Positions 43,228 through 61,062 of a stretch of DNA of 64,000 bases are shown here, piece by piece. Below the pieces are notes generated by a model. It was not told the origin of the DNA. It saw only the letters and a list, made by a program, of their open reading frames with translations, and searched no databases. The stretch is taken from positions 1 through 64,000 of the forward strand of contig JAQWTV010000016.1 of assembly GCA_029242545.1 (NCBI GenBank), given 5' to 3'. The stretch is from Roseibacillus sp. GTDB taxonomy: Bacteria; Verrucomicrobiota; Verrucomicrobiia; Verrucomicrobiales; Akkermansiaceae. The number at the start of each line of letters is the position of its first letter. The first letter of the stretch is position 1. The position numbers were made by a program, and so were the translations under genes.

Positions 43228-43944
43228 ATGGCCAATTTCTTCCCGCGTTGGACGAACATTTTGCCGCTGAAGATAGCGGTGTGCCTAGGAGTTGCCGGTG
43301 CGAGCGTTGTAGTAGGGTTCACCTACTATGCCACTCCCAAAGCGCAACGAGTGGGCTACATGCCCTCGCAGCCGATTCCCTACGATCATGCATTGCACGT
43401 GAACCAGCTGGGTATGGATTGTCGCTACTGTCACAGCTTTGTGGAGCACTCAGGGCACGCAAACGTGCCCTCGGCCAGCACCTGCTGGAATTGTCACCAA
43501 CACGTCCGCAAGGACAGCGACAAGCTGCAACCCTTGCGCCGGGCTTTTGACAAGGATTACGAGAAGTATGACGGGGAACCGATCAAGTGGGTGCGAATTC
43601 ACCAGAGCCCGGACTACGTCTTCTTCAACCATTCGGCTCATGTAAACCGAGGAGTCTCCTGTGAATCCTGCCACGGCAAGGTGAACGAGATGAAAGTGGT
43701 CTACCAGGCCGAGGCCCACTCGATGGGTTGGTGCCTCGATTGTCACAGGAATCCGGAAAAGCATCTGCGGCCTCTCGAAGAGGTCTACAACCTTGATTAC
43801 GACGCGAAGGAATGGTTGGCCGAGAATAAGATGGTCCATCCCGAAACCGGGAAGGAGCTTAAGAGCCAGAAGGACTTAGGCCTCTATTTGAAGCAGCATT
43901 GGAACATAAAGGCGAAGGAGTCGTGCTGGACGTGTCACCGTTGA
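43228..43944 (+). CDS. actA: Alternative complex III subunit A, pentahaem cytochrome c
   Basis: 238 residues with an N-terminal uncleaved signal-anchor (LKIAVCLGVAGASVVVGFTYYA). Five CxxCH haem sites: CRYCH (Cys65), CWNCH, CESCH, CLDCH and CWTCH at the very C-terminus. This is the ActA pattern. It faces the periplasm and passes electrons out of the quinol:cytochrome c/oxidase complex. It is the first gene of an operon at least 17.8 kb long, only 3 bp before actB. Confidence 0.95.
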   Translation: MANFFPRWTNILPLKIAVCLGVAGASVVVGFTYYATPKAQRVGYMPSQPIPYDHALHVNQLGMDCRYCHSFVEHSGHANVPSASTCWNCHQHVRKDSDKLQPLRRAFDKDYEKYDGEPIKWVRIHQSPDYVFFNHSAHVNRGVSCESCHGKVNEMKVVYQAEAHSMGWCLDCHRNPEKHLRPLEEVYNLDYDAKEWLAENKMVHPETGKELKSQKDLGLYLKQHWNIKAKESCWTCHR

Positions 43945-43947
43945 GAA

Positions 43948-46900
43948 ATGAGTAAGCGAGTTTTCCACCACCCTGAAGTGTCGGCCGATGATTCGGGCGT
44001 GGCATCTTGGCGTAGTGTGGGAGAATTGGAGCGCACCCCTTCTTTCAGGGCGCACGTGGAGCGCGAATTTCCCGAGGGCTCCGGGCATCTCAGCCCGGAA
44101 GATCAGAAAGCGACGCGTCGGAGCTTTATGAAGCTCATGGGAGCCTCGTCGGCGCTAAGCGGCCTCACTCTGGTCTCCTGCCGCCGGCCGGAATCCTACA
44201 TTGTCCCTTACAAGAAAGCTCCTGAGTGGGTGATTCCCGGTAAGCCGTTATATTATGCCTCAACCCGGCCCCGTGCAGAAGGATCAGTCCCGTTGGTGGT
44301 AACGACCTATGAGGGGAGGCCCACAACCCTGGCGCCCAATGGTGACCACAATGACGGATGCGGTGCTGACGCGCTGACTCAGGCCTCGGTCCTCAACCTG
44401 TATGATCCGAAGCGATCGAGGAATTTTCTGCGCGACGGCAAGAAGGCATCGCAGCGAGATTTTGAGGGGGTCCTGGGCTCTCTCGCTCGGGAAGGGGCCA
44501 AGTTGGCAGTGGTGGTAGGCGAGGATGACAGCCCAACTCGAAATCGCCTGCGCGACGAGATCGTGCAGGCCTACCCAGAGTCGAAGTTCTATACTTATGA
44601 GGCTCTCTGTGGCGAAGCTCGGCGCAGGGTCCAGAACGAGGTCTTTGGCGAGGGCAGCCAGACCGTTGTAGATTTTTCGAAGGCTGAGCGCATTCTCTCC
44701 CTCGATTGCGATTTCCTGGGAGTTGATCCGGTTGGGAGTGCGTCAGATTTCTCCAGAAAGAGGCAGGGTGGTGGCGAAACCTACCACCAAGACGTCGCAG
44801 CTGATGCCATGAACCGGCTCTACATGGTAGAATCGGTCTTCAGTCTGACGGGGGGCATGGCCGACCACCGCCTCCGTGCAAAACCGAGCCAAATGGCCGC
44901 CATAGCGGCTCAAGTTGCTATCGGATTGGGGATTACGGTAGACGGGTATGATGCCGGATGCCTGTCGGATGAGGAGAAGGCCGAGTTGCTTGGAACTGCG
45001 GCAACTTTTGACTCATGGATTTTAGAATGCGTTGCGGATCTCAAAGCCCATAAAGGGAGCGCAGTTGTCCTTGCGGGAAGCAGACATGAAGAGGACCTGC
45101 AGCGAATCGTGATCGCGATCAACAGAGAGATCGGATCTTACGGAGGCCCCATGGTAGTCTATGAGACAGGTCGAACGGGGTATGGCACTATTGCTGATTT
45201 TGAGGCGGATGTTGATGAGGAGACAATCGTATTGCTTTTGGGCCCTTCCAATCCCGTATACGACCGCCCGGGTGAGCAGTTCAGGAGAGGGCTCAGCAGA
45301 TCGAAACTGAGCATTCATCTCGGGGTGAGAACCGATGCGACTGCGTTGGCATGTGACTGGCATATTCCGGCAGCTCATTACCTTGAGAGCTGGGGCGATA
45401 CTCGAACCGCCACGGGGACATATTCTCTGACTCAGCCAATGATTCTTCCCCTGTATGGGGGTTTTTCAGAACTGGAAATTCTCTCCCAGCTATTGAGTTG
45501 GAGACAATTCGACTGGGATAGCCTCGAGTCCGAGGGAGCGGAGGAGCAGGTTGTGCCGCCCACTCTGATTGCCGGCGAGGGTATGGGTGGGGCCCCTTCT
45601 CCAGCCCTCGCTGAGGTAAGGCAAACGTTCTCCCTCCCTGAAAATGCCAACGATGATGGCGATGTGGCATGGAAAGAGGCTCTCAAGGGTGGATATCTCC
45701 AGAGTAGTTCCTACCAGACTGTTGACGCGGATGGTGCCGGAGATCCCACACCCAAGCTAAGTTCCCGCGAGAATACTGGCATCGAAATTAATCTTCTTCC
45801 GGATGCTTCAGTCTGGGATGGACGTTACATCGACAATGGCTGGCTTCAAGAGGCTCCGGACCCAATCTCCAAGCTTTCGTGGGACAATGCGGCTCTGGTA
45901 TCGCCGAAAACGGCCAAAGAGCTTGGCGTTTACGAGTCGGTAGAGCAACTAGAGCCCGAAACCGAGATTCCTCTCCTCGGGAAGGTCAAAAATGCCCCTC
46001 AGCCTTCCATTGGAGAAGGAAAAGGAGCGAAGGCGCCGATGGCCCTGATCAAGACGCGCTCAGGACGAATGGAAATTCCGGTTCTGGTGGCGTTTGGCCA
46101 TGCAGATGACTGCATCTCCATCGCTTTGGGGTATGGACAGGGCGCATCTGATGGACGTGATGGTGTTCGGGTTGTTCGAGAGGAGGACCCGCTGGCCACT
46201 GTGAGTCCGGTTGGGATTAACACGGGATTTAATGCCAACCAGTTGAGGGGAGATGCCTCCTTCAGTATCGAGGCGATTGAGGTCACCAAAACTCAGGGGC
46301 GTTACCCAGTAGCTCTGGTCCAGGAGCACAACGCGATGAATGGACGAGCTCTTGCCCGGGAAATTTCTACGAATGACGTGGAGCACCACGGCCACAAGGT
46401 TTCCTTCGAGGACCAAGTCGCCAAGGTGCGGGAGCAAGGTCCGGTGGATTCTCACGCGCCTGAAAATGTATCTCTCTACAAACGGCGTGGTTCCACTACG
46501 TGGGAAGGTGACAAGGACAAGCAGGATGACCTGATCAGCGATAAGATCCACCAGTGGGGGATGACCATTGATCTCAACACCTGCGTGGGGTGCAACGCCT
46601 GTCTGATTGCGTGTCAGGCCGAAAACAATATCCCCATCGTCGGGAAGGAACAGGTGGCCATGGGCCGGGAAATGCACTGGGTTCGGATGGACCGGTATTT
46701 CGCGTCACCGATGACCGAGATGGACGAAAAGACTCACAAGAAAATAGCGACCCCTGACTGGGTTCAGCAGAACCCCGAGATGATTCCGCAGCCGGTGTCC
46801 TGCATGCAATGCGAGAATGCTCCCTGCGAGACCGTTTGTCCGGTGAATGCAACCGTGCACAGCGAGGAGGGGTTGAACACAATGGCCTACAATCGCTGTA

Positions 46901-47508
46901 TCGGGACTCGGTATTGTGCGAACAACTGCCCTTACAAAGCGCGGCGCTTCAATTATTTCGACTATAACAAGCGCAATCCGCTTGTCGCCCATAACCTCTA
47001 CAAGGGGCCTTTCGGTAAGAAGCAGGTCGGAGAGGCTCCTCATTTACAACGCAACCCCAATGTGTCTGTTCGGATGCGAGGGGTGATGGAGAAATGCACT
47101 TATTGTGTGCAACGCCTTGAGAGCGCGAAGATCAAGCAGAAGCAGATCGGTCGGATGAAGACTCTGCAAGCAGGCAGGAAATCTACCGACGTCCAGATCA
47201 AGCCAGAGGATTTAAGGGTGAAGGCAGACTCAATTAAAGTGGCCTGTCAGGATGCCTGCGAGGCGAATGCAGTGAGTTTTGGAAACCTTTTGGACAAGGA
47301 AGACGCTCAAGTCTGGAGGGCCAAGTACAAGGGCGAGAAGAAAACAAAGAGCGGAGCGTTCGAGCTCGTGCACAACCCTCGCAACTACGATGTTCTTCAG
47401 TATATCGGAACCGCCCCCAGAACCAGCTATCTTGCTCGAGTGAAGAACCCGAATCCTACCATGCCCGATGCTGTCTATCGGGGGTTGGCGACCATTAATA
47501 CCGCCTGA
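43948..47508 (+). CDS. actB: Alternative complex III subunit B (MopB-like + Fe-S)
   Basis: 1186 residues. A twin-arginine-like signal TRRSFMKLMGASSALSG lies unusually far inside (about residue 54), the 'TAT-variant' seen in ActB. A molybdopterin-oxidoreductase-like domain follows, which in this family has lost the cofactor. The C-terminal 310 residues hold ferredoxin-type clusters: CVGCNACLIACQAE (from Cys879), CMQCENAPCETVCPVNAT, CIGTRYCANNCPYKARR and CTYCVQRLE...CQDACEANA. It carries electrons from the quinol site to ActA/ActE. The fused MopB/FeS form is normal for this complex. Confidence 0.94.
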   Translation: MSKRVFHHPEVSADDSGVASWRSVGELERTPSFRAHVEREFPEGSGHLSPEDQKATRRSFMKLMGASSALSGLTLVSCRRPESYIVPYKKAPEWVIPGKPLYYASTRPRAEGSVPLVVTTYEGRPTTLAPNGDHNDGCGADALTQASVLNLYDPKRSRNFLRDGKKASQRDFEGVLGSLAREGAKLAVVVGEDDSPTRNRLRDEIVQAYPESKFYTYEALCGEARRRVQNEVFGEGSQTVVDFSKAERILSLDCDFLGVDPVGSASDFSRKRQGGGETYHQDVAADAMNRLYMVESVFSLTGGMADHRLRAKPSQMAAIAAQVAIGLGITVDGYDAGCLSDEEKAELLGTAATFDSWILECVADLKAHKGSAVVLAGSRHEEDLQRIVIAINREIGSYGGPMVVYETGRTGYGTIADFEADVDEETIVLLLGPSNPVYDRPGEQFRRGLSRSKLSIHLGVRTDATALACDWHIPAAHYLESWGDTRTATGTYSLTQPMILPLYGGFSELEILSQLLSWRQFDWDSLESEGAEEQVVPPTLIAGEGMGGAPSPALAEVRQTFSLPENANDDGDVAWKEALKGGYLQSSSYQTVDADGAGDPTPKLSSRENTGIEINLLPDASVWDGRYIDNGWLQEAPDPISKLSWDNAALVSPKTAKELGVYESVEQLEPETEIPLLGKVKNAPQPSIGEGKGAKAPMALIKTRSGRMEIPVLVAFGHADDCISIALGYGQGASDGRDGVRVVREEDPLATVSPVGINTGFNANQLRGDASFSIEAIEVTKTQGRYPVALVQEHNAMNGRALAREISTNDVEHHGHKVSFEDQVAKVREQGPVDSHAPENVSLYKRRGSTTWEGDKDKQDDLISDKIHQWGMTIDLNTCVGCNACLIACQAENNIPIVGKEQVAMGREMHWVRMDRYFASPMTEMDEKTHKKIATPDWVQQNPEMIPQPVSCMQCENAPCETVCPVNATVHSEEGLNTMAYNRCIGTRYCANNCPYKARRFNYFDYNKRNPLVAHNLYKGPFGKKQVGEAPHLQRNPNVSVRMRGVMEKCTYCVQRLESAKIKQKQIGRMKTLQAGRKSTDVQIKPEDLRVKADSIKVACQDACEANAVSFGNLLDKEDAQVWRAKYKGEKKTKSGAFELVHNPRNYDVLQYIGTAPRTSYLARVKNPNPTMPDAVYRGLATINTA

Positions 47509-47530: not shown

Positions 47531-49024
47531 ATGGCAGATACCGCTACAAAGACCACGAGTGAGACGTCCACACCCCGGGAGGTAAAAATCCCGGTGTTGG
47601 AGCGTGAGACGCTCGTGCTCAACAAGCGGTCCTACCACTGGATTACAGAGCGGGTCTGTGGCGTTATCGAGAACAAGCAACCTGCCTTCTGGTGGCAGTT
47701 GTTCATTCCCTGTGCCATCATGGCAGCCATTGGAGTGGGTGGAGGATTAATTTACCTCGTCAGTACAGGAGTGGGGGTATGGGGAAACACCAACCGTGTG
47801 ATGTGGGGTTGGCCAATTGTGAACTTCGTCTTCTGGATTGGAATCGGCCATGCGGGCACCCTAATTTCCGCTATTCTTTTCCTCACCAGGCAGAACTGGA
47901 GGACCTCTATCAATCGAGCGGCGGAAGCCATGACGATTTTTGCGGTAGTCTGTGCCGGTATTTTCCCGGCCTTCCACGTCGGACGTGTCTGGATGGCGTG
48001 GTATCTTGCTCCGATTCCGAACGCGAATGCGATCTGGCAAAACTTCAAGTCACCGTTGCTTTGGGATGTGTTCGCGGTTTCCACCTATTTTTCGATTTCA
48101 CTCGTTTTCTGGTTCCTTGGAATGGTCCCGGACCTTGCAACGATCAGGGATCGCTGCAAGCGGGGAGTGAAGAAGCTCCTCTATGGGATCTTCTCCCTCG
48201 GTTGGCGTGGGAGCAATCGCCACTGGAGTCATTACGAGATGGCCTACCTTCTCCTTGCCGCTCTCTCCACCCCATTGGTGCTGTCGGTGCACTCGGTGGT
48301 GAGTTTTGACTTTGCCACTTCAGTAGTGCCCGGATGGCACACCACCATCTTCCCGCCCTACTTTGTTGCCGGGGCCATTTTTGGAGGATTCGCGATGGTG
48401 CTGACAATCATGATCCCCGCCAGGTTTATCTATGGTCTGGGGGACATGATTACGATGAAGCACATCGATAACATGGCCAAGATCATCCTGCTGACTGGGA
48501 CGATCGTGGGATACGCCTACCTGATGGAGCTGTTTGTAGCCTTCTACTCGGGTGCTAAGTACGAGATGGCTGCGTTTACCTACCGGATCACGGGCCCCTA
48601 CTGGTGGGCCTACGTTGCGATGATGAGCTGCAATGTGCTCTCTCCACAGCTTTTCTGGTTCAAGTGGTGCCGCGAGAACCTGTGGGTCGTAATGGGTGTA
48701 TGCATGGCAGTGAACGCTGGGATGTGGTTCGAGCGCTTTGTGATTATTGTGACGACCCTCGCTCGTGATTTCATGCCGGCGAACTGGAAGTATTACAACC
48801 CCAGCTGGGTTGATATAATTCTCTTTCTCGGTACGATCGGGCTATTTGCCGCGCTGTTTCTCCTCTTCCTCCGTTTCCTTCCATGCATCAACATTGCAGA
48901 GGTGAAGTGGGCAAAGAAGGAGAGCGATGTGCACTATGACGATAAACAACAGCATCCTGATGAAGGGACGGTAGTTGAAGCCGCCTATCAGCAGGAAGTT
49001 GAGAAAGGAACTGCCGAAGTCTGA
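47531..49024 (+). CDS. actC: Alternative complex III subunit C, NrfD-like membrane protein
   Basis: 497 residues, about ten membrane helices, NrfD/PsrC family. Seen: [17 protein letters not shown] at the N-terminus, a quinone-site-like helix [55 protein letters not shown], and a hydrophilic C-terminal tail. It is predicted to bind menaquinol or ubiquinol at the periplasmic side. It is followed without a gap by actD (TGATG overlap at 49022-49026). Confidence 0.94.
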
Positions 49025-49581
49025 TGAGTAGCTCTGTCAAACGCGTCTACGGCTACCTCGCCGAGTTCGAAAGTGCATCCGCCCTCTATAAGGCTGCGGA
49101 AAAGGTTCGTGATGCAGGATTTCGAAAGTGGGACTGCTATACTCCTTTCCCAGTTCATGGGCTGGACGACGCCATGGGCATCAAGAGATCGATCCTCCCC
49201 TACTTTGTCTTCTTCGGGGGGCTTACCGGTCTCATTACGGCGTTTCTTCTATCCTATGTGACGCAGGTCGGGATCTATCCGACAACGGTTCAGGGAAAGC
49301 CATCCAACATCTTCACGGTTCCTGCATTTTTCCCGATCATGTTTGAACTCACCGTTCTGTTCTCAGGGTTTACCACGCTCTTTGGCTTTCTGGGGCTGAG
49401 CCAACTGCCCCGCTGGAACCATCCGATTTTTGCAAGTCGCCAGATCCATCGAGCAACTGATGACGGCTATTTCATCGAGATAGAGGCCAAGGATCCGAAA
49501 TTCTCTGCGGAGGGAACAAAGGGATTTCTGGATGAAATAGGTGGAGAGAACATTGAACTGGTGGAGGACGACGGAACCTAG
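49024..49581 (+). CDS. actD: Alternative complex III subunit D (DUF3341)
   Basis: 185 residues. An N-terminal cytoplasmic part VYGYLAEFESASALYKAAEKVRDAGF...DCYTPFPVHGLDDAMG is the DUF3341 hallmark. Two membrane helices follow (ILPYFVFFGGLTGLITAFLLSY and FFPIMFELTVLFSGFTTLFGF), then a charged tail. It has no cofactor and is a structural subunit. It starts inside the actC stop codon. Confidence 0.92.
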   Translation: MSSSVKRVYGYLAEFESASALYKAAEKVRDAGFRKWDCYTPFPVHGLDDAMGIKRSILPYFVFFGGLTGLITAFLLSYVTQVGIYPTTVQGKPSNIFTVPAFFPIMFELTVLFSGFTTLFGFLGLSQLPRWNHPIFASRQIHRATDDGYFIEIEAKDPKFSAEGTKGFLDEIGGENIELVEDDGT

Positions 49582-49590
49582 GCTGAACCC

Positions 49591-50289
49591 ATGAAATACT
49601 TCTTTCTCGTTCTTGCTGGATTGATCACCCTCACTTTTGGGGTGTTCGGGTTTCGTGGTGCTAAGAGCGCCAAGACACCAATCGAGATTTTTCCGGATAT
49701 GGACAGGATGGATTTCGTGAAGAGCCAGAAGCCAAACGACTTTTTCCACGATGGGCAGGGAGCTCGTCTGCCGGTGCCCGGAACAGTGCCTCACTCCAGT
49801 GACGATGGAGTGTTCCCGGTAGAATTCGGAGAGGGTAGAACAGGGCATTATTACACCGGAGCGATCAATGATTACTTCGCGAGCGGCCTCCCGCTGGAGG
49901 AGCTCGGACTCGTCGGGGATGAGGGGGCGACGGACATGCAAGCACTGCTGAGACGCGGGCAGGATCGATACGCGGTCTTCTGCGCGATCTGCCATGGGGC
50001 CCCAGGGGATGGAACCGGCACGGTCAGTAACTATATGGCGGCGAAGATTGCCAATCTCCATGAGCCACGGTTTGCCAGCGGGGAGTATCCAGACGGCAAG
50101 CTTTATCATGTTATCACTTACGGTCAGGGACTGATGAGTGGCTACGGGGCAAGTATTCCGGTTCGGGACCGGTGGGCTATCGTGGCCTACGTTCGGGCCT
50201 TGCAGGATGCCAAGAAAGCGCCGGCCTCACCGGCAACCGCATCTGTCCCCGCGGCAAATGAGGAATCGGCAGGAGGGCCAAGTAACTAA
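49591..50289 (+). CDS. actE: Alternative complex III subunit E, monohaem cytochrome c
   Basis: 232 residues. An N-terminal membrane anchor (YFFLVLAGLITLTFGVFGF, no lipobox cysteine) precedes MDRMDFVKSQKPNDFFHDG, then one haem site CAICH (Cys131) and axial methionine candidates in LMSGYGASI. The C-terminus is Ala/Pro-rich. It is a membrane-tethered cytochrome within the complex. Confidence 0.92.
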   Translation: MKYFFLVLAGLITLTFGVFGFRGAKSAKTPIEIFPDMDRMDFVKSQKPNDFFHDGQGARLPVPGTVPHSSDDGVFPVEFGEGRTGHYYTGAINDYFASGLPLEELGLVGDEGATDMQALLRRGQDRYAVFCAICHGAPGDGTGTVSNYMAAKIANLHEPRFASGEYPDGKLYHVITYGQGLMSGYGASIPVRDRWAIVAYVRALQDAKKAPASPATASVPAANEESAGGPSN

Positions 50290-50297
50290 AACTCGTC

Positions 50298-51635
50298 ATG
50301 GCACATCATCTGGTTACATCCGCAGAGATCCCGGAAGAAGGCGAAAGGCTGGAAGTCGACAGACTCAAGAAAATCAGAACGATTTGCCTGATCGTTGCGG
50401 GTGCAGGAGGGCTATTAAGTATGCCTGCATTGTTTGGATGGTTCGGGGACGGGGTTCAGGGTTCCTATAGCTTTTCATGGCTCTACGGTTTCTTCTTTTT
50501 CACCACCCTCGCCATGGGTGGGTGCTTCTGGACATTGCTCCATAATGTGTCCAATTCCGGATGGGGTGTTTCAGTGCGGCGGGTCATGGAAAACGTTGGG
50601 TATGTGTTTCCGTGGATGTTTATTCCCATGCTTCCTCTGCTGCTGCCTGAAGTTCAAACCTACCTCTATGAATGGATGGATAAGCACCGTCTGGCTAAGG
50701 AGGCTGGGGGAGGATCTACTAGCTATGGACTCCACCATGGCCCCACCGCGGACCATCTTCTCCACGTCAAGTACTGGTATCTCAATCTCGAGTTTTGGTA
50801 TGTGAGGATGCTCTGCTACTTCCCACTGCTGGGATTCGTCATCTATTTTCTTAGAAAGCTCTCGGTCGACCAGGATACCGATCCTACCCCTGGCACCTCG
50901 AGGCTCAAGAGGGCGCGCTTCCACTCCTGCTGGGGTGTCCCGGTTCTGGCGGTTGTGCTGACCTTTCTCGCCATCGACGTCGTCAAGACGCTCGACTACA
51001 AATGGTTCTCTACGATGTGGGGAGTCTACGTGTTCGCAGGAAGTGCCTTGAACGCGATGGCGGTGATTATTCTGGTTACCATCGCGCTCCGACGGATGGG
51101 GTATTTGAAAAACGTGGTGGGTCCCGAGCATGATCACCTCATGGGCAAGCTGATCTTCGCCTTCACGGTCTTCTGGGCCTATATCTCCTTCGACCAGTAC
51201 TTTCTGTATTGGTATGCCAATATCACGGAGGAGACTCGTTACTTCATTCTTCGGAACACCGCAGGATGGAACTACGTTAGTATCGTCTTGGTATTCGGGC
51301 ACTTTGTTGCGCCTTTCCTTCTCCTGATCAGGCAGGATCTCAAGCGGCGCAATGGCTACATGATCGTGATGGCCTGTTACCTGCTCTTTATGCACATGAT
51401 AGATCTTTATCATATGATCATCCCCGAACGTGGGCCATCTGTGACTAAGGTGCTCCACCCTCACAGCCCGGACAGCTGGGCTCTCTGGCTTAATGGGTCA
51501 ATTGTGGGGGACGTTGTGGCATTTGTCACCGTAGGGTGTTTTTTCGTCTATATCCTCCTTCGAAATATAGGGTCTGTCGCGCTCTACCCGCACCGCGACC
51601 CACGCATCCTCGAATCTGCGAATGTTCATAACTGA
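50298..51635 (+). CDS. actF: Alternative complex III subunit F, NrfD-like membrane protein
   Basis: 445 residues, about ten membrane helices, the second NrfD-type subunit: LYGFFFFTTLAMGGCFWTLLHNVSNSGWGVSVRRVMENVG near the N-terminus, FSTMWGVYVFAGSALNAMAVIIL, FWAYISFDQYFLYWYANITEET and YHMIIPERGPSVT. In this family the helices may conduct protons. It ends in a TGATGG overlap with the following cytochrome gene. Confidence 0.92.
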   Translation: MAHHLVTSAEIPEEGERLEVDRLKKIRTICLIVAGAGGLLSMPALFGWFGDGVQGSYSFSWLYGFFFFTTLAMGGCFWTLLHNVSNSGWGVSVRRVMENVGYVFPWMFIPMLPLLLPEVQTYLYEWMDKHRLAKEAGGGSTSYGLHHGPTADHLLHVKYWYLNLEFWYVRMLCYFPLLGFVIYFLRKLSVDQDTDPTPGTSRLKRARFHSCWGVPVLAVVLTFLAIDVVKTLDYKWFSTMWGVYVFAGSALNAMAVIILVTIALRRMGYLKNVVGPEHDHLMGKLIFAFTVFWAYISFDQYFLYWYANITEETRYFILRNTAGWNYVSIVLVFGHFVAPFLLLIRQDLKRRNGYMIVMACYLLFMHMIDLYHMIIPERGPSVTKVLHPHSPDSWALWLNGSIVGDVVAFVTVGCFFVYILLRNIGSVALYPHRDPRILESANVHN

Positions 51636-52465
51636 TGGAATCCTCGCCACAAAATAGTCCTGATTCTCCGGGATCTCCTCGACAGAAGGATGTGAACAAC
51701 ACCCTCAAGCGGTTCTCGACTTTTTGGATTGGATGTATTCTCTTTGTGGCCTTCGGATTAGCCAGTCTTGTGCTGGGAATTGGATTCAACAAGCCAGTCG
51801 TCAACAACATCGATAAGGTGAATGCGAAACGGAGAGCAATGATCAAGAGGGGAGTCGACAAGTCCCATGCGGGAGCGCGTGAAAAAGCCCTTCTGAGCTT
51901 CGAGCGAGTCGGCTCTCACTTTCTCAACACTGCGCCGGCACCGGACGAGAAGCCGGAATTTGTTCTTCCCGGATCGGCAACCCAGAAGAGGAAAGCTTCG
52001 GGCGGTTCCGGGATTGTGGTTCCTGCTGGCTTTCCGACGATTGATCCGGATGCTCCAGTGGATGTGGCAGTGATGGAACAGGGAAAGGCGATGTTTGCGA
52101 TATGTTCCGCCTGCCACGGGCCCGAGGGAAAGGGAATGTATCACATCAACAAGACAGGTCCCCCCTTAGCCAACTCGGAGTGGGTCACCGGCCCGGTTGC
52201 TAATTTGATCGCGATACAATTCCGTGGGCTGAGTGGTCCGATCGAGGTCAATGGCGAAAAATATACTCCTGTGGCACCAATGGCACCTTTGCCCTTGGAC
52301 AATAATTCTATCGCTGCAGTTCTGACCTACATCAGGAATAGTTTTGGTAATAAGGCATCCCCGGTCACTCCGGAGCAGGTAGAAGCCATGAGAGGGGAGC
52401 TCGGCAAGCCGATGTTGAGTCCCGCAGATCTCATTCCTCCAACTGCGGCGGCTGGTTCAAATTAA
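51635..52465 (+). CDS. Membrane-anchored cytochrome c
   Basis: 276 residues. One N-terminal membrane helix (about 28-50; FWIGCILFVAFGLASLVLGIGF), a basic linker, and a class I cytochrome c domain with CSACHGPEGKG (Cys157) and methionine candidates in PMAPLPLDNNSIAAVLTYIRNSFG. It is translationally coupled to actF. It resembles the cytochrome c domain encoded at 54732, so the two may have come from duplication. It probably links complex III to the oxidase. Confidence 0.88.
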   Translation: MESSPQNSPDSPGSPRQKDVNNTLKRFSTFWIGCILFVAFGLASLVLGIGFNKPVVNNIDKVNAKRRAMIKRGVDKSHAGAREKALLSFERVGSHFLNTAPAPDEKPEFVLPGSATQKRKASGGSGIVVPAGFPTIDPDAPVDVAVMEQGKAMFAICSACHGPEGKGMYHINKTGPPLANSEWVTGPVANLIAIQFRGLSGPIEVNGEKYTPVAPMAPLPLDNNSIAAVLTYIRNSFGNKASPVTPEQVEAMRGELGKPMLSPADLIPPTAAAGSN

Positions 52466-52479
52466 GATTACGATTTCCC

Positions 52480-53976
52480 ATGACCTCCGAGAGCTGCACC
52501 GGGACGCCAGATCAGAATGATCTGAAGCTACGGGCGAGTATCGACCGCTCCCTCCGCCACCCCGTGATGTTCTTTTTTGCGAGCGGTGCGGCCTGGCTGG
52601 CTGTTGCAATCATCCTCGGTTTCATCGCTTCCTATAAGAGTCACGACTCCGACTTTCTCTCCGGAATCGAGTTTTTGAACTACGGGAGGGCCTATCCCGC
52701 GCATATCAATCTTCTGTTTTACGGATGGGGTTGTCAGGCTGCCTTCGGACTGATCGTATGGCTTCTAGCGAGGCTGTCCCGGAGCGAGTGCCGATCCACT
52801 GGGATTATTCTTACCGCCGGACATCTCTGGAATTTTGGCATTATGGCCGGGACGCTGTCTATTCTAGCAGGCCGCGGGTCGGGAAAGCCCCTCATGGAGT
52901 TTCCGCCTGCAATCTGGCCAGTCCTCCTGTTGTCCTATGTCTTCATCACAGTATGGTCCTTCATTCAGGTTCGTTGTAGCTACGGCGGTAAAACCTATGT
53001 GGGCCAGTGGTATCTCCTTGCAGCGGTCTTCTGGTTTCCGTGGGTGTATCTCACCGGGCACCTGTTTGTATTCGTTTTTAATGGGCATCCCGTCATGGCT
53101 GCAGGGATCAATGCTTGGTACAAATACGCGCTCATTCTTCTCTTTTTTACACCGGTCGCGCTTGGGACAGCCTACTATCTTGTGCCTAAAATCACGGGGC
53201 GTCCGATCTACAGTTATTCCCTTGCCCTCTATGGGTTCTGGGCCCTTGCGGTGATTGGCCCATGGGCAGGAATGCAGAAGCTTGCCGGGGCGCCGCTTCC
53301 ACAGTTCATGCCCTACGTTGGCGCGACTGCTACCACCCTCATCCTCATTCCCGGAATTGCGGTCGGAGTCAACCTCCTCATGACACTGCGCGGGCACCAG
53401 GCGCACATTGTGGCAAGCCCTTCGTTACGTTTCACAATTGCAGGGATCGTAGGATTCCTCCTCCTAGGGCTCACAGGGATGGCTCTCAACACTCCAGCTA
53501 CCCTAAAGATGACCCAGTTTGCCCTGACCGGTTACGGGTTTGAGGTTCTTGCAGTCTGTGGGTTTTTCAGCATGTGCGCCTTTGGAGGCATATACTTCAT
53601 TGTACCCCGGATCACTCGACGGGAATGGCTTTCCCGCCGGTTTATCGGATGGCATTTTTGGTTAACGACTTATGGAATCCTGACTGTAGTGGTCTGCTCT
53701 ATCATGGGTGGACTGTTCCAAGGGGCTGCGCAGGAAGCATACCGAAGCTCGTGGAGTGATGCAGCGTCTCTGAGTTACGCCTACAATGTGGGAACCACTG
53801 TGGCCTGGGGCTTGATCGCGCTGGGGAGCTTTTTCTTCCTGGTTCATCTTCTTCTGATGTGGGCTCGCCTAGGGAAACGGAGCCAGCACCCAACTCTTTT
53901 GGATGGAGGTCATCATGAAGAGTCTCCCCATGGCCCAGACCATGAGGCAGAGGAACTCCAACCTGCAGAAGCCTGA
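52480..53976 (+). CDS. CcoN-fold (haem-copper oxidase I-like) membrane protein lacking CuB/haem ligands
   Basis: 498 residues, about twelve membrane helices. CcoN ancestry shows in AYYLVPKITGRPIYSYSLAL and IYFIVPRITRREW and in the order of the helices. Yet the metal ligands are gone. Compared with CcoN: WYGHN is WYKYA (His to Tyr216); PHHLH is MQKLA (His pair to Gln266-Lys267); GHVH is GYGF (His to Tyr352 and Phe354). Only the first low-spin-haem histidine (His75, PAHINL) remains. It cannot reduce O2 or NO by the known chemistry. It is co-operonic with a CcoO-like cytochrome, so it may serve as that protein's membrane partner. The ligand loss is seen directly; the role is inference. Confidence 0.85.
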   Translation: MTSESCTGTPDQNDLKLRASIDRSLRHPVMFFFASGAAWLAVAIILGFIASYKSHDSDFLSGIEFLNYGRAYPAHINLLFYGWGCQAAFGLIVWLLARLSRSECRSTGIILTAGHLWNFGIMAGTLSILAGRGSGKPLMEFPPAIWPVLLLSYVFITVWSFIQVRCSYGGKTYVGQWYLLAAVFWFPWVYLTGHLFVFVFNGHPVMAAGINAWYKYALILLFFTPVALGTAYYLVPKITGRPIYSYSLALYGFWALAVIGPWAGMQKLAGAPLPQFMPYVGATATTLILIPGIAVGVNLLMTLRGHQAHIVASPSLRFTIAGIVGFLLLGLTGMALNTPATLKMTQFALTGYGFEVLAVCGFFSMCAFGGIYFIVPRITRREWLSRRFIGWHFWLTTYGILTVVVCSIMGGLFQGAAQEAYRSSWSDAASLSYAYNVGTTVAWGLIALGSFFFLVHLLLMWARLGKRSQHPTLLDGGHHEESPHGPDHEAEELQPAEA

Positions 53977-53980
53977 ATCG

Positions 53981-54712
53981 ATGACATTCAAATCCTTCAT
54001 TGTAGCGTTGGGGTTGAGCTTCGGCATTCCCTGGTTTCTGATCATCCTCGTTCCCTTCGGCAAAATGCGAAACTTGGAGCCGGTTTATTTTGAGACGGAA
54101 AACGATGGGAAAGACGAGATTTACGTTCCTCGGCGCTCGGGGCTGATAACCACGGGTTCTTCGGTGTATGGTGCCAACGGTTGTTATATCTGTCACACAC
54201 AGCTTATCAGAGCTGGGTATGCTGGATCAGAGCTTGGTCGCGCGGATTGGGCTGGTTTTCAGATCAAGGATGAAAACGGAGTCAGTGTGAATACCACCCG
54301 TGAAACCACTCCCTTCGACTACGGTGATGAGCCATTTGCCCATATCGGGCTCATGCGCATCGGGCCGGACCTCACAAATGTTGCCGGACGTATTGAGAAA
54401 TATCTGAAGGAACCCCTGACCAAAGCCAAGTCTCCGGAGAGCTGGCTCTATCTGCACCTCTTTAATTCCTCTTTGAAAACTAAGACCCTGAACAATTCGT
54501 TCGCGTGTCCTCCACAGCCTCACTTTTTCAAGGAACGGCCACTTTACGGGCAAGGAAGTCCCAACGCTGTTCCCGGCTTGAGCCAAGAGGGCAAGGAGGT
54601 TCTCCCCACGCCAAAGGCTAAGGCTCTCGTCAGTTATCTGCTATCTTTGCGAAAAGACGATGCAGTACCCTATTCCCTGAATTATAGTCGCGATAAGAAG
54701 AAGGCGGACTAA
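53981..54712 (+). CDS. CcoO-like monohaem cytochrome c
   Basis: 243 residues from ATG 53981, 4 bp after the previous stop; an in-frame ATG at 53903 would add 26 residues and overlap the CcoN-like gene by 74 bp. One membrane helix (FIVALGLSFGIPWFLIILVPFG), then YGANGCYICHTQLIRAG, the CcoO haem signature, with GLMRIGPDLTNVAGR and WLYLHLFNSSL as in CcoO. The C-terminal part is proline/charge-rich. It is the expected partner of a CcoN subunit, here beside a ligand-less one. Confidence 0.85.
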   Translation: MTFKSFIVALGLSFGIPWFLIILVPFGKMRNLEPVYFETENDGKDEIYVPRRSGLITTGSSVYGANGCYICHTQLIRAGYAGSELGRADWAGFQIKDENGVSVNTTRETTPFDYGDEPFAHIGLMRIGPDLTNVAGRIEKYLKEPLTKAKSPESWLYLHLFNSSLKTKTLNNSFACPPQPHFFKERPLYGQGSPNAVPGLSQEGKEVLPTPKAKALVSYLLSLRKDDAVPYSLNYSRDKKKAD

Positions 54713-54731: not shown

Positions 54732-55499
54732 ATGGCGAATTCACAGCATACGAACAAGATTGATCGACCCGATCTCGAAGACTCGACCAACGTGGTAGAG
54801 AAACACGAGAAGTTGGTGGAAATCAGTGCCTCACAGGCCAGAGAGAATCAGATATCCGAGACCGGGATGGAGCCTGTTTCGCTCTGGGTCTTCCTTGCCA
54901 GTGCGATTGTTCTTCTTATAGGCGGCGGTGTTCTTGGGGCAGGAGGAAAACTCTTCAGCTACAGTCCTCACCCGGAGGGTTACACTCGGCCAGATTTTGC
55001 GAGCGATGCCGATACGGGGCCAACTATTGGTCCGATTCTGGAAGCCCTTACAAAACGGGGAAAAAATATCTACGCCAAGTGCAGCGGTTGTCACGGATCG
55101 ACCGGAAATGGGGATGGAAATCAATATCCGCCCCTTGCCGGCTCGGAGTGGGTTACTGGAAATACCGGGCGGCTTGCGCAAATTATTCTGAATGGCCTCA
55201 GTGGTCCAATCGATGTCGCCGGTAAGACCTACAATGGAAACATGCCGGCCCAAGCTCCGCTCACGGCGGCAGAATTGGCAGCTGTCATGACTTACATCAG
55301 GAATGAATTTAACGATGTTGGTGATGTGGTTAGCATGGAGCAGGCGGCTAGTGCCATAAAAGTCCATGAAGGCCGCCCCCAGGGCGCAATTACTGTCAAG
55401 GAGCTGGATGCGGACCACAACCAGATGCTCGAAGGAGAAGCAGTCGATCCTTCCACGAGTGTGAACTTCGAAACGCTACAACCCGAAGCGGCTGAATAG
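54732..55499 (+). CDS. Membrane-anchored cytochrome c
   Basis: 255 residues. A charged N-terminal cytoplasmic segment, a membrane helix (VSLWVFLASAIVLLIGGGVLGAG), then a class I cytochrome domain with CSGCHGSTGNGDG and NMPAQAPLTAAELAAVMTYIRNEF. The N-terminal layout recalls CcoP-type subunits, but only one haem is present. It lies between the CcoO-like gene and coxA, a fitting place for a donor to the aa3 oxidase. Confidence 0.88.
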   Translation: MANSQHTNKIDRPDLEDSTNVVEKHEKLVEISASQARENQISETGMEPVSLWVFLASAIVLLIGGGVLGAGGKLFSYSPHPEGYTRPDFASDADTGPTIGPILEALTKRGKNIYAKCSGCHGSTGNGDGNQYPPLAGSEWVTGNTGRLAQIILNGLSGPIDVAGKTYNGNMPAQAPLTAAELAAVMTYIRNEFNDVGDVVSMEQAASAIKVHEGRPQGAITVKELDADHNQMLEGEAVDPSTSVNFETLQPEAAE

Positions 55500-55521: not shown

Positions 55522-57408
55522 ATGAGCGCAGAAGCGGCAGCAACAGATCATGGGCACGATCACGAAGATCATCATCACGATCTTCCCTTCTACAAAAAGT
55601 ACATCTGGTCCACAGATCACAAGGTGATTGGGATTCAGTATGCCATTACGGCATTACTCTTTCTCGCCTTTGGCTTCTTCCTGATGATGGTCATGCGGTG
55701 GAGCATCGCATATCCGGAGGAGCCGCTTCCTGGATACCTCAGCTGGATTTTCAGCGATGAATGGAAGGCTCGGTGGCTTCAGGATGGTCGAGTTACCGGC
55801 GAGACCTACAACATGTTCGGGGCCATGCATGGCACCATCATGGTCTTCCTCGGAATTGTGCCGCTTGGATTTGCCGCTTTTGGAAATTACGTTACGCCGC
55901 TGCAGATTGGGACCGTCGACATGGCTTTCCCGAAGCTCAACATGGTGAGCTACTGGCTCTACCTTGTTGGAGGGCTTACCATGTGCGCCAGTTTCTTCAT
56001 GGAGTCCGGAGCAGCAAAATCAGGGTGGACGAACTACGCGCCCCTGGCGAACTTTGCGGATGGTCAGATTGTGAATCAATTTCTCGCGGGCCAGACCCAG
56101 TGGCTATTGGGAATGGTATTCCTGATTTCGTCCTCTCTTCTTGGTGCAGTGAACTTCCTCACCACTCTCATCAACCTTCGAGCAAAGGGGATGACATGGA
56201 TGCGGATGCCCTTTTTCTGCTGGGCCATGCTTGTTACCGGCTTCCTTCTGCTACTTGCCTTTCCTCCTCTTGAGGTGGCAGCAATCATGCAGTTGATGGA
56301 CCGGACAGTCGGTTCCAGTTTCTTCACGCCCAGTGGTCTTTATACCTCTACAGCCGGGGTGATCGAAGCTTCTGGAGGGGGCAGTCCTCTTCTCTATCAG
56401 CACCTGTTCTGGTTCCTCGGACATCCAGAGGTGTATGTCCTTCTTCTCCCCGCTATTGCTTGTGTGGCGGAAATCATACCAGTCAACACTCGAAAGCCTC
56501 TTTGGGGCTACAAGCCCATGGTGTGGTCGATAGTCATCCTCGGCTTCCTCAGTTTCATCGTCTGGGCTCACCATATGTATCTCACTGGGATGGGGCCGGT
56601 AATCTCCACGTGGTTCCAAACCACGACTGTATTGATTTCTGTGCCATCGGTGATCTTACTGACTTCACTGATCGTTTCCCTGTGGGGCGGTTCGATCCGG
56701 TTTAATCTGCCGATGCTCTGGGCCGCGGCCTTTCTTCCGATGTTCGGGATAGGAGGGCTGACCGGTCTTCCGTTAGCCTTCAACCTGGTTGATCTGCATT
56801 TGCACGACACCTATTATGTAATTGGGCACTTCCACTACGTGGTCGCACCAGGAATTCTCTTTGGACTGTTCGGAGGTCTCTATCACTGGTTCCCGAAGGT
56901 TACCGGGAGGCACATGAATTCCTTCCTCGGACACCTTCATTTTTGGCCCTCTCTGGTCTTTATGAATGTGCTCTTTTTCCCAATGCTCATCCAGGGCATG
57001 GCTGGATTTCACCGGCGGTGGTATAATGGGGGAGACGCCTATCTGTCCAAGGCTGCTGACAGTGCGAACGTGTTTGGTAATACCGTCGCGGAGTGGATTC
57101 ACCTCAATCCCGTGATGAGCTTCGGGGCCTTCGCGCTCGCCTTGGCCCAAATTCCGTTCTGCATCAACTTCTTCGTGAGTATGTTCGCAGGGAAAAAGAT
57201 CAAAAATGACAACCCTTACGATGCGACAACCTTGGAATGGGCCACGCCTACGCCTCCGCCGCACGGGAACTTCACTTTTGATGTCGCAGCTTACCGGGGC
57301 CCCTATGAATACAGCCGAGATGATCATGAGGGTGATTTCTTCCCTCAGTGGGAGGAACCGAAAAGGAACAAGCCAGCCCAAGAGCCCAAGACCTCGCCTG
57401 TTTCCTAA
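55522..57408 (+). CDS. coxA: aa3-type cytochrome c oxidase subunit I
   Basis: 628 residues, twelve helices plus tail. All ligands present: His103 (MHGTIMVF) and His438 for haem a; His301 (with Glu303 and Tyr305 in GHPEVY), His350-His351 for CuB; His436 for haem a3 (VIGHFHYVV). Glu in HPEVY marks an A1-type proton path. The N-terminus is histidine-rich (HGHDHEDHHHD) just before the first helix. It is the true oxygen-reducing centre of the operon, in contrast to the CcoN-like gene upstream. Confidence 0.97.
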   Translation: MSAEAAATDHGHDHEDHHHDLPFYKKYIWSTDHKVIGIQYAITALLFLAFGFFLMMVMRWSIAYPEEPLPGYLSWIFSDEWKARWLQDGRVTGETYNMFGAMHGTIMVFLGIVPLGFAAFGNYVTPLQIGTVDMAFPKLNMVSYWLYLVGGLTMCASFFMESGAAKSGWTNYAPLANFADGQIVNQFLAGQTQWLLGMVFLISSSLLGAVNFLTTLINLRAKGMTWMRMPFFCWAMLVTGFLLLLAFPPLEVAAIMQLMDRTVGSSFFTPSGLYTSTAGVIEASGGGSPLLYQHLFWFLGHPEVYVLLLPAIACVAEIIPVNTRKPLWGYKPMVWSIVILGFLSFIVWAHHMYLTGMGPVISTWFQTTTVLISVPSVILLTSLIVSLWGGSIRFNLPMLWAAAFLPMFGIGGLTGLPLAFNLVDLHLHDTYYVIGHFHYVVAPGILFGLFGGLYHWFPKVTGRHMNSFLGHLHFWPSLVFMNVLFFPMLIQGMAGFHRRWYNGGDAYLSKAADSANVFGNTVAEWIHLNPVMSFGAFALALAQIPFCINFFVSMFAGKKIKNDNPYDATTLEWATPTPPPHGNFTFDVAAYRGPYEYSRDDHEGDFFPQWEEPKRNKPAQEPKTSPVS

Positions 57409-57429: not shown

Positions 57430-59316
57430 ATGGAGATTCCATATACAGTCACTGCCCGTAAAGACACCGGTCTTTTCAACTCAAAGGTTGGAATCTGGCT
57501 CTTTCTGGCGTCCGAGGTGATGCTGTTTGGCGGACTCTTCTCAGGCTATGTCTTTCTGAGGATTTATGCGGACTATCCTTGGCCGGAGCGGGCGCTGCCA
57601 ATCGTGCCTGGACTAATCAATACGTTTGTATTGATCGGGTCTTCTGTGACCGTGGTCTTTGCGTGGGCTGCCCTCAAGATGAGGGAATGGCGAAAATTCC
57701 AGATCTACATGGGCATTACGATCGCTTGTGCGGGGATGTTCATGGTTCTCAAGGGGATTGAGTATAAGGCGAAGCTGGAGCACCAGGCCGTCCGGATGGA
57801 TGACTTTGCGATTATTGAGGGGCATGCGCACTACGCTGCGATCGGAGATGACGGTAAACTTATTCATGCCGACACTAAGGCGAAGGCGAAGAAAATGGGT
57901 GGTTCCGGTGAGAAACCATTCAAGGCCAACGCGATTCTCTTCAAACCTGACACAGTTGATTTCTCGGTAGCAAGGGCCCACGAGCCGTGGGTTGAAGCGG
58001 TGCTCGAGCAGGCTGCCAAGAGGAAGGCCCAACTCCTCACCGCTGAGAATCTCTTTCTTTATGGGAGTATTGAAGACTACGCCGGGACGGAAGATGCCCC
58101 GCTTTCAAGTAAGGAGCGCGCCAGTAAAGAGGCGGCGCTGGTAACTAAGTATGCCAACGCGGAGGACAAGGTGGAGCGCAAATTTGGAGAGAGCTCTCTC
58201 TTCATTCCCGCGAGGACGGCTCTCAGTTACGATCTCATTAAAAAGGCGAGGGCAGCCTACGTTGGAGGTCGGTCTCATAATGCGGCGGCGAGGACTGCGA
58301 TTCTGAAAGACAATTGGGAAAAGGTGAAAGCCGAGCGCCCAGATGATAAATACTGGGAGCAGGCGCCTGATACAAAGATTGATGCGGCCACCCAACTCGA
58401 TGAACAGTTTGACTCTGAGGGGAATTGCACTGCGGGTAGCAAAGTAATGTCGGTAATCTCTACTCTTTCCTTCAAGATGGATCCTCCCCAGCCCATCGTG
58501 ATCAGCAGGGGCTGGGTCAAGCGGCCAGTCAAGGCGAAGGAGGGGAAAGCTGAGCTCAGGGACGACACCTCCTTTAATGCAGGTGAGGGTGAAGGGTCAG
58601 CGCAAGGACTAATGGATAGTTCTCTTATTCTTGCGGTCGATGCCATCGATCTGCGGTGGATGGTCCAGAAGGCAGAAGAGGCCGGGAAAGAGCCCCTAGA
58701 AGTGATCGAGAAGAGTTGGATTTTCTCTGAAGGAAACAAGAATCACAAATACTACAAAAGGATCTGGAAGAGCCATAAGGCCCGAATCGCCGCTCTCGAG
58801 GAGAAGCTTCTCGAAGACTATGGCAGAGATAAGGAGGGGAATCCCAAGCGAGTCCCTACGGAAACTGACCGTTACCGGGTTGCTTGGCAGGATCTGGTTC
58901 ATTATGCGAGAGCAGATCAGCAGGAGGGACGCCCTCTCCGGCCCGGTGATCCTGGTTACGATGAGCTTCGCCCGAAGTTTTGGAATGGATTTGCAGGCCC
59001 TAACCACAAGGATGAGGAAATCCATGACTTGCACGCGTTTCCAGAACTTGAGATTCCTCACGAGAAGGTGGCATTGCAATCGATGTTCACGCCGAAGTGG
59101 AACACCTATTACGCCGTATATTTCACCATTACGGGCTTACATGGTCTCCACGTGATTGGAGGAGCTATCGTGCTGGGCTATTACCTCTTTTTCAGTAAGG
59201 GCCTGTATCGTCGAAATCCGGAATGGCTTGCCAACCGGGTAGAGGTGGGCGGGCTTTTCTGGCATTTCGTTGACCTGGTCTGGATCTTCCTGTTCCCAAT
59301 CCTTTACCTCATGTAA
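57430..59316 (+). CDS. coxC: Cytochrome c oxidase subunit III with large internal insertion
   Basis: 628 residues, about three times the usual size. Residues 1-117 are the first three helices (VGIWLFLASEVMLFGGLFSGYVFL; GLINTFVLIGSSVTVVFAW; IYMGITIACAGMFMVLKGIEY). Residues about 552-628 are the last two (MFTPKWNTYYAVYFTITGLHGLHVIGG; LFWHFVDLVWIFLFPILYLM). Between them are about 430 hydrophilic Lys/Glu/Ala-rich residues with no membrane helix and no family I recognise. With the N-terminus inside, this domain would lie on the periplasmic face. The reading frame is uninterrupted. Confidence 0.93.
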   Translation: MEIPYTVTARKDTGLFNSKVGIWLFLASEVMLFGGLFSGYVFLRIYADYPWPERALPIVPGLINTFVLIGSSVTVVFAWAALKMREWRKFQIYMGITIACAGMFMVLKGIEYKAKLEHQAVRMDDFAIIEGHAHYAAIGDDGKLIHADTKAKAKKMGGSGEKPFKANAILFKPDTVDFSVARAHEPWVEAVLEQAAKRKAQLLTAENLFLYGSIEDYAGTEDAPLSSKERASKEAALVTKYANAEDKVERKFGESSLFIPARTALSYDLIKKARAAYVGGRSHNAAARTAILKDNWEKVKAERPDDKYWEQAPDTKIDAATQLDEQFDSEGNCTAGSKVMSVISTLSFKMDPPQPIVISRGWVKRPVKAKEGKAELRDDTSFNAGEGEGSAQGLMDSSLILAVDAIDLRWMVQKAEEAGKEPLEVIEKSWIFSEGNKNHKYYKRIWKSHKARIAALEEKLLEDYGRDKEGNPKRVPTETDRYRVAWQDLVHYARADQQEGRPLRPGDPGYDELRPKFWNGFAGPNHKDEEIHDLHAFPELEIPHEKVALQSMFTPKWNTYYAVYFTITGLHGLHVIGGAIVLGYYLFFSKGLYRRNPEWLANRVEVGGLFWHFVDLVWIFLFPILYLM

Positions 59317-59330
59317 CCCCTGTATCGCCC

Positions 59331-59708
59331 ATGGCTGACACACCTGAAGCAATCCAGAAGGCAAAGAAGCAGTATCTACTGATAGGCCTCATCCTGTTCG
59401 TTTTCACAGTGGTGACGGTTGCAGTGGCAACTGTGCCGTGGCTGGATTTCGGCGACCATGGCTTTGACTCGAGAGACGCGATCATTGGTCTCCTCATTGC
59501 CACCTTCAAAGCCAGTCTCGTGGCCTCGATCTTCATGCACCTCAACCATGAGAGAAAGACGATCTACGTCGTTCTTTTGATCGCCGCGGTAATGGGCATC
59601 GTGTTGTTTTTTCTGACGGGTTGGGCCTTCGTAGATCCGATTGAGTATGGCAACACCGTCGAGGGGGATCGGTTTTACAACCCCGAGAAACCAATTACCT
59701 CAGACTAA
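59331..59708 (+). CDS. Cytochrome c oxidase subunit IV (prokaryotic type)
   Basis: 125 residues with three membrane helices (YLLIGLILFVFTVVTVAVATV, AIIGLLIATFKASLVASIFMHL, TIYVVLLIAAVMGIVLFFL). The KASLVASIFMHLNHE stretch is the COX4_pro/CtaF signature. A small accessory subunit, 14 bp after coxC. Confidence 0.88.
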   Translation: MADTPEAIQKAKKQYLLIGLILFVFTVVTVAVATVPWLDFGDHGFDSRDAIIGLLIATFKASLVASIFMHLNHERKTIYVVLLIAAVMGIVLFFLTGWAFVDPIEYGNTVEGDRFYNPEKPITSD

Positions 59709-60171: not shown

Positions 60172-61062
60172 ATGCCGATTCTCGCCAAGACCATCGTTGA
60201 ATACCTAGGTATTCCGGAAAATTTTTCGGAACACGGAGGAAGTGTCGACCACCTGATTGATCTTGTTCACTGGTTCATGCTGGCGCTCTTTGTAGGGTGG
60301 ACGGGGTTTTTCCTGCTCGCGTGCTGGAGGTTCTGGCGCAAGAGGAATCCCAAGGCGTCCTATCATGGGGTGCAGAACCACGTCACCACTCACCTCGAGG
60401 TCGGAGTAGCGATCTTCGAGGCGGTGCTTCTACTCGGGTTTGCTTTTCCTCTCTGGGCAGAAAGGACCGACCGGTTCGAGGACATTCAGGCACAGGACCC
60501 AGTTCGGGTCAGGGTGATTGGATATCAGTTCGGTTGGAACTACCACTATCCTGGACTGGACGGGAAATTCGGAAGGATTGACCGTCACTTGGTGGAAAGG
60601 GCTGGGGATCCCTGTATCGACCCGGAAGACCCAAATGGCTGGGACGACTTTGTTTCACCGATTCTCAAGCTCCCAGTATTGGAGCCGGCAATTCTCCAGA
60701 TAACATCTACGGATGTGATTCACGGCTATGCTATTGTGCCCATGCGGATTCAGCAGGATGCCATACCCGGAACCGATATTCCCATGTGGTTTCGTCCCCT
60801 CAAGACGCTGGAGACCAGTGTGGTCTGTGCCCAGTTGTGTGGAGAGGGACATGGGGACATGGTTGGAATAATGGAAATCGTGGGCAAGAGTGCCTTCAAC
60901 TCCTGGGTGGAGGAGCAAAGCGGTGCTGCCTATACGCGCAACTCCAAGAATATGGATCCCGCCGACTCTGATGAGCAGGAGCCCTCGGAGGTATCTGCCG
61001 AGCCTGCCTCGGAAGCGGGCGAAGGGGACGATGATTCCGCCGGCGGGGAAGTTGCAGAGTGA
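60172..61062 (+). CDS. coxB: Cytochrome c oxidase subunit II (CuA)
   Basis: 296 residues. Two membrane helices (WFMLALFVGWTGFFLLACW; HLEVGVAIFEAVLLLGFAFPL), then a cupredoxin domain with His184 (VIHGYAIVP), Cys219, Cys223, Glu225, His227 and Met230 (CAQLCGEGHGDM), a complete CuA site. No haem c is fused. The last 45 residues are acidic (DSDEQEPSEVSAEP..). No lipobox signal. It is placed last in the operon, after coxA and coxC, rather than first as in many bacteria. Confidence 0.95.
   Translation: MPILAKTIVEYLGIPENFSEHGGSVDHLIDLVHWFMLALFVGWTGFFLLACWRFWRKRNPKASYHGVQNHVTTHLEVGVAIFEAVLLLGFAFPLWAERTDRFEDIQAQDPVRVRVIGYQFGWNYHYPGLDGKFGRIDRHLVERAGDPCIDPEDPNGWDDFVSPILKLPVLEPAILQITSTDVIHGYAIVPMRIQQDAIPGTDIPMWFRPLKTLETSVVCAQLCGEGHGDMVGIMEIVGKSAFNSWVEEQSGAAYTRNSKNMDPADSDEQEPSEVSAEPASEAGEGDDDSAGGEVAE

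Follow-up and report, generated by a model that had tools for sequence, protein, structure and literature searches.

The window analysed here, a stretch of 64,000 nucleotides from a Roseibacillus sp. genome, carries an operon-like run of genes in which ActABCDEF, the subunits of alternative complex III (ACIII), are followed by a monohaem cytochrome c, by three genes that we denominate CcoN*, CcoO* and CcoP*, and by the oxidase genes CtaD, CtaE, CtaF and CtaC. The features are as follows:

43228..43944, + strand: ActA, pentahaem cytochrome c of ACIII, with five CxxCH motifs (assigned by position and motif count)
43948..47508, + strand: ActB, molybdopterin-like/iron-sulfur subunit of ACIII (family assigned from the known ACIII architecture)
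47531..49024, + strand: ActC, NrfD-like membrane subunit of ACIII (a homologue is present in 137 of the 145 family genomes)
49024..49581, + strand: ActD of ACIII (order conserved)
49591..50289, + strand: ActE, monohaem cytochrome c of ACIII (PF13442; distal Met retained)
50298..51635, + strand: ActF, NrfD-like membrane subunit of ACIII (order conserved)
51635..52465, + strand: extra monohaem cytochrome c, a CcoP* homologue with the motif CSACH (PF00034), at the same place in most Akkermansiaceae loci compared
52480..53976, + strand: CcoN*, CcoN-fold subunit of 498 aa, putatively cofactor-less (PF00115, AlphaFold/Foldseek, ligand columns)
53981..54712, + strand: CcoO*, CcoO-like membrane monohaem cytochrome c of 243 aa (FixO 27 bits, just under the cut-off; PDB profile matches to CcoO only)
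54732..55499, + strand: CcoP*, membrane monohaem cytochrome c with the motif CSGCH, distal Met retained (PF00034/PF13442; alignment)
55522..57408, + strand: CtaD, aa3-type oxidase subunit I, all ligands present (PF00115, 439 bits; TIGR02891)
57430..59316, + strand: CtaE, oxidase subunit III, with a large internal insertion (PF00510)
59331..59708, + strand: CtaF, oxidase subunit IV (PF03626, TIGR02229)
60172..61062, + strand: CtaC, oxidase subunit II, with the CuA motif CAQLCGEGHGDM (PF00116, TIGR02866)

The start of CcoO* is taken to be the ATG at 53981, five bases past the CcoN* stop; the ORF as mechanically called starts at 53903. The order ActF-CcoN*-CcoO*-CcoP* is conserved across lineages, being found in nearly every locus examined. 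The CtaE of the window is 628 aa long, with its insertion lying between the helices of subunit III, and among relatives the length varies from about 263 aa in Methylacidiphilaceae-like genomes up to 448-536 aa. Separately, one Akkermansiaceae genome (G244) has a second, divergent ACIII-oxidase operon that does not include CcoN* (L203, 5152-15796).

The reading frame of CcoN* is open and undamaged, and its product belongs to PF00115 (148 bits). It scores 111 bits with the curated equivalog for ccoN, TIGR00780, and so does not reach the cut-off of 583, on a scale on which its ligand-bearing relatives also attain only about 234 bits. In sequence and profile searches its PDB matches are solved CcoN structures only. 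The AlphaFold model (pLDDT 85, pTM 0.87) has the 12-helix haem-copper oxidase fold and, in Foldseek, matches P. stutzeri CcoN (3mk7_A) with a TM of 0.90 over 460 columns, while NorB, ba3 and the A/B-family oxidases rank lower. The original prediction had described an intact frame inside an operon, encoding a CcoN-type fold in which five of the six expected histidines are gone, and alignment to bona fide CcoN agrees with it: the low-spin haem b ligand H75 is still His, the CuB His is Tyr216, the CuB HisHis pair has become Gln266-Lys267, the haem b3 His is Phe354 and the second low-spin haem b His is Val356. Only the numbering of the GHVH motif had to be corrected, because the positions first given for it (Tyr352/Phe354) were two too low. 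In P. stutzeri CcoN a tyrosine, Y251, is cross-linked to the CuB His; the corresponding residue is Gly260 in CcoN* and, across the family, Ala, Gly or Met. We found no conserved histidine that takes over a former metal site; H392 and H456 are well conserved, and neither is a ligand position. Thus, a feature that defines CcoN, six metal-ligand histidines, was looked for and one (His75) was found, and, judged by these residues, CcoN* is not a functional CcoN. The missing ligands would exclude oxygen reduction by this protein and suggest that it folds free of both haem and copper. NorB was also considered as its identity and was rejected, as the FeB/haem histidines are absent and the structural match is weaker than that to CcoN. 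The genome of the window, which is 93% complete, contains only two COX1-family proteins, CtaD and CcoN*.

The nearest named relatives, at 93-97% identity, are Akkermansiaceae/Roseibacillus sp. genomes, the source being probably a marine member of this family close to Roseibacillus, and the same five ligands are missing in 75 of 75 Akkermansiaceae homologues, which is far beyond chance. The gene that encodes this protein is nonetheless still under selection. NG86 estimates of dN/dS are 0.03-0.12 in Roseibacillus-type pairs, the lineage of the window, and 0.05-0.16 in other degenerate pairs, values comparable to those of ActF and CcoO*, with some dS near saturation. Among 145 Akkermansiaceae genomes, ActC is present in 137 and CcoN* in 122, and the gap corresponds to one genus (g2, discussed below) and a few incomplete genomes; that genus aside, CcoN* is kept in about all members of the family that have ACIII. 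The frame is open in nearly every full-length copy, with a single in-frame stop in each of two matches of the class-wide profile search (in G102 and G544). The ratio of CcoN* to ActC protein distance, on the other hand, rises once ligands have been lost: it is 2.1 in the intact group, 2.9 in Akkermansiaceae, 3.1 in f4 and as much as 5.9 in clade B. Relaxation thus accounts for some of the change, with CcoN* partly relaxed after ligand loss and constraint persisting. The acceleration, strongest in clade B, together with the differences among degenerate lineages in the residues that replace the ligands, is what one would expect if CcoN* were a vanishing relic, kept only by its position in the operon. 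Such decay is very improbable in view of the open frames, the low dN/dS, the almost universal retention with ACIII and the near-invariance of the residues now found where the metals used to bind. The proposal that CcoN* is a functional, repurposed and non-catalytic subunit is therefore supported, and relaxed selection, which would have counted against it, is seen as a faster rate on top of persisting purifying selection.

A search of the phylum retrieved about 60 orphan homologues of approximately 460-510 aa, all of them from class Verrucomicrobiia and distinct from the bona fide CcoNO fusions (700-900 aa) that are present in many of the same genomes; of 236 genomes from this class, 184 have a match to the CcoN* profile, a count that includes ordinary CcoN. 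Other short CcoN proteins (about 455 aa, with all ligands; L063-L070) occur in other classes of the phylum, unlinked to ACIII. In a maximum-likelihood tree computed without the ligand columns and hence blind to them, 65 orphans form one clade and share common descent. All six histidines and the Tyr are present in 21 of these 65, and the remaining 44 have lost some or all ligands. Since the outgroup is intact, the direction of change is loss, and the ligand state changes at least three times on the tree, whose long branches leave the exact placements uncertain. A degenerate sequence on a long branch, L019, is nested in the intact clade (support 99/85), and a tree constrained to a single degenerate clade was rejected (delta lnL 73, p-AU 0.004); the losses were therefore repeated. 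We also considered whether the aa3 genes downstream had caused them. This holds partly: L024 keeps all its ligands with Cta genes downstream, and ligands are gone in clade B, f6 and L019, where no aa3 genes adjoin. Replacement by a neighbouring aa3 oxidase, then, cannot have been the sole cause.

The degenerate lineages have been emptied to different degrees. (i) In Spartobacteria/Udaeobacter-type members the b3 and CuB ligands are gone and both low-spin haem histidines are usually kept (H75 in 76% and H356 in 84% of 13 sequences), with L171 and L169 having lost both. (ii) In clade B and in Methylacidiphilaceae-like genomes nearly all ligands have disappeared, His75 included in most of clade B. 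(iii) In the 75 Akkermansiaceae sequences H75 is invariant (100%) and the replacements are nearly so: [KR]215 96%, Q266 98%, [KR]267 98%, Y352 100% and [ED]355 98%. The invariance of His75, and the usual survival of both low-spin histidines in the Spartobacteria type, raise the idea that a single haem b, or else a quinone, is still bound through His75, in which case CcoN* would conduct electrons or act as a sensor. We regard this as unlikely: the partner position 356 is always Ile, Val or Leu in Akkermansiaceae, with no other conserved His nearby, and His75 itself has been lost in most of clade B and in the Methylacidiphilaceae-like genomes. The charged and polar residues conserved at and around the former haem and CuB positions could alternatively line a proton or ion pathway through the emptied cavity, by which CcoN* would add proton translocation to ACIII. 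This is an improbable reading, because the set of residues is lineage-specific, with different ones in the other degenerate clades, and because buried salt bridges that fill the cavity account for them equally well.

The haem-c motifs of the partner cytochromes have been retained. CcoO* has an intact CYICH in the window, and a CxxCH wherever it is complete; some of its ORFs appear very long (for instance 684 aa in L189), and these we attribute to mechanical extension of the ORF across CcoN* rather than to fusion. Its distal Met has become Cys (Cys176 of 243 aa in the window), and Cys occupies this position in 75 of 75 Akkermansiaceae sequences (the alignment has 76 rows, one of them a duplicate of the window). 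By contrast, the distal Met of the SxMP motif is present in 21 of 21 loci with an intact CcoN*, and Lys, His or Arg is found in 5 of 18 loci of clade B. In profile alignments with solved CcoO the Cys falls exactly on the Met of SxMP; PDB profile matches are to CcoO chains only, and Foldseek, with weak matches (best E 0.0096), places CcoO in its top three. ActE, CcoP* and the extra monohaem cytochrome c have the Met in nearly all aligned loci. From its position the Cys is a putative haem ligand. In TsdA and SoxAX the active sites are made up of c-haems with His/Cys ligation, whose potentials lie at about -185 mV and at -400 mV or below (PMC6879331), and the fixation of the Cys throughout Akkermansiaceae and in the fusions described below would suit a functional centre in CcoO* of that family (redox, thiol or gas sensing, or TsdA/SoxA-like sulfur chemistry), to which CcoN* would be a mere anchor. 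We consider this rather unlikely, given that ligation by the Cys is putative, that the nearest structures are CcoO and not TsdA or SoxA, and that degenerate lineages elsewhere have Met, or Lys, His, Arg or Ala.

The fate of the module in genus g2, which is probably Akkermansia, bears on its association with ACIII. Most genomes of this genus have ACIII, and none of the 16 that we searched has a COX1-family protein. Five loci yielded a single fusion that closes the ACIII operon immediately after ActF:

L090, 4345-6786, - strand: CcoN*-CcoO*-CcoP* fusion
L198, 5432-7900, - strand: CcoN*-CcoO*-CcoP* fusion
L199, 9209-11947, + strand: CcoN*-CcoO*-CcoP* fusion
L200, 12540-15050, + strand: CcoN*-CcoO*-CcoP* fusion
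L201, 11475-13832, + strand: CcoN*-CcoO*-CcoP* fusion

The fusions have two haem-c motifs and share the distal Cys of CcoO*, their ORFs measure 785-912 aa (some over-extended upstream), and hhalign finds homology between CcoN* and their N-terminal membrane portion (probability 96, E 4.5e-9). The module has therefore outlived every haem-copper oxidase in these genomes and is now covalently one unit. The bridge between complex III and the aa3 oxidase that had first been envisaged as one possibility is supported in part only: with many relatives having no adjacent aa3 genes, and the fused form present where there is no haem-copper oxidase, a part of ACIII fits better.

We think it probable that CcoN* is a pseudo-oxidase, a membrane scaffold devoid of haem and copper that would hold the c-type cytochromes CcoO* and CcoP* on ACIII; synteny and the fusion suggest that it assembles physically with this complex. 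In an ancestor of class Verrucomicrobiia, the ccoNOP genes of a C-family (cbb3-type) oxidase would have joined the ACIII operon. Several lineages, that of the window included, would have lost first the binuclear centre and next the low-spin haem, with CcoN* retained as the anchor or docking piece and with charged replacements probably filling and stabilising the empty cavity. Electrons could then pass from menaquinol through ActB, ActA and ActE to the membrane c-haems of CcoP* and the extra monohaem cytochrome, and from there to the CuA of the aa3 oxidase or to another acceptor, bypassing CcoN*. Three observations sit uneasily with the scaffold: (i) the invariant His75 of Akkermansiaceae would be superfluous; (ii) the distal Cys of CcoO*, if it does ligate the haem, lowers its potential, which is awkward for a simple relay; and (iii) lineages that have lost ligands show a higher rate of CcoN* relative to ActC (2.9-5.9 times, compared with 2.1 in the intact group). 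More tentatively, the ACIII of Verrucomicrobiia may be a hybrid with a permanent pseudo-oxidase module, in which the CcoO* haem of Akkermansiaceae would be His/Cys-ligated and have a role other than feeding an oxidase, the latter suggested by the persistence of the fused module in genomes that have no haem-copper oxidase.

To our knowledge, the metal ligands have been taken to fix the identity of subunit I in haem-copper oxidases. In the present case, one orthologous and still-selected gene has lost them several times independently, and the ligand-bearing, half-stripped and fully stripped forms that coexist today constitute a natural series from an enzyme to a structural part.

The module resembles a cbb3 oxidase, CcoNOP, in the subunit I fold, the CcoN landmark motifs, the N-O-P order and the presence of a haem-c motif in both O and P. 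It differs in that (i) CcoN* has one of the six ligand histidines and no cross-linking Tyr; (ii) CcoP* carries a single haem c, not two, and the distal Met of CcoO* is Cys; and (iii) it is located in the ACIII operon. As in the ACIII-aa3 supercomplex of Flavobacterium johnsoniae, for which direct transfer without a soluble cytochrome c has been proposed, ActABCDEF adjoins an A-family oxidase; there, however, contact is made through oxidase subunit III, and the parts of that account available to us mention no CcoN-like subunit (PMC8361435). The cbb3 variant of Nitrospina gracilis also has odd residues around CuB in its CcoN homologue, but, unlike CcoN*, it retains all three CuB histidines, which were termed universal in the family (PMC3578206). 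We found no earlier description in the literature of a ligand-less CcoN in an ACIII operon, nor any proteomic or structural study of the ACIII of a verrucomicrobium; a remark in Refojo et al. 2010 is possible.

In verrucomicrobial methanotrophs and in Opitutaceae, cbb3-type genes have been placed beside ACIII (PMC8498564, PMC6688271, PMC11102522); all three studies treat the locus as an oxidase, and one of them ties it to high oxygen affinity. Five pmo-bearing genomes from a single family, probably Methylacidiphilaceae, have an ACIII-linked CcoN without ligands, and these five have no other CcoN: nothing else in them fits ccoN more closely than do aa3 and CcoN*. The published ACIII-adjacent 'cbb3' is very probably the same locus and, in the methanotrophs, its ligand-less form, an identity with the published strains that we infer, and on the evidence of its residues the protein invoked for the oxygen affinity of methanotrophs would very probably be incapable of reducing O2. 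Annotation by similarity to CcoN would overcount high-affinity oxidases throughout class Verrucomicrobiia. A 476-aa COX1-family protein of a Methylacidiphilaceae-like genome was considered as a true CcoN and rejected, being NorB-like with NorC upstream. A NorC-NorB pair, whose NorB-like protein matched no NCBIfam model at the default threshold, lies at L196, 2798-4903, in a Methylacidiphilaceae-like genome.
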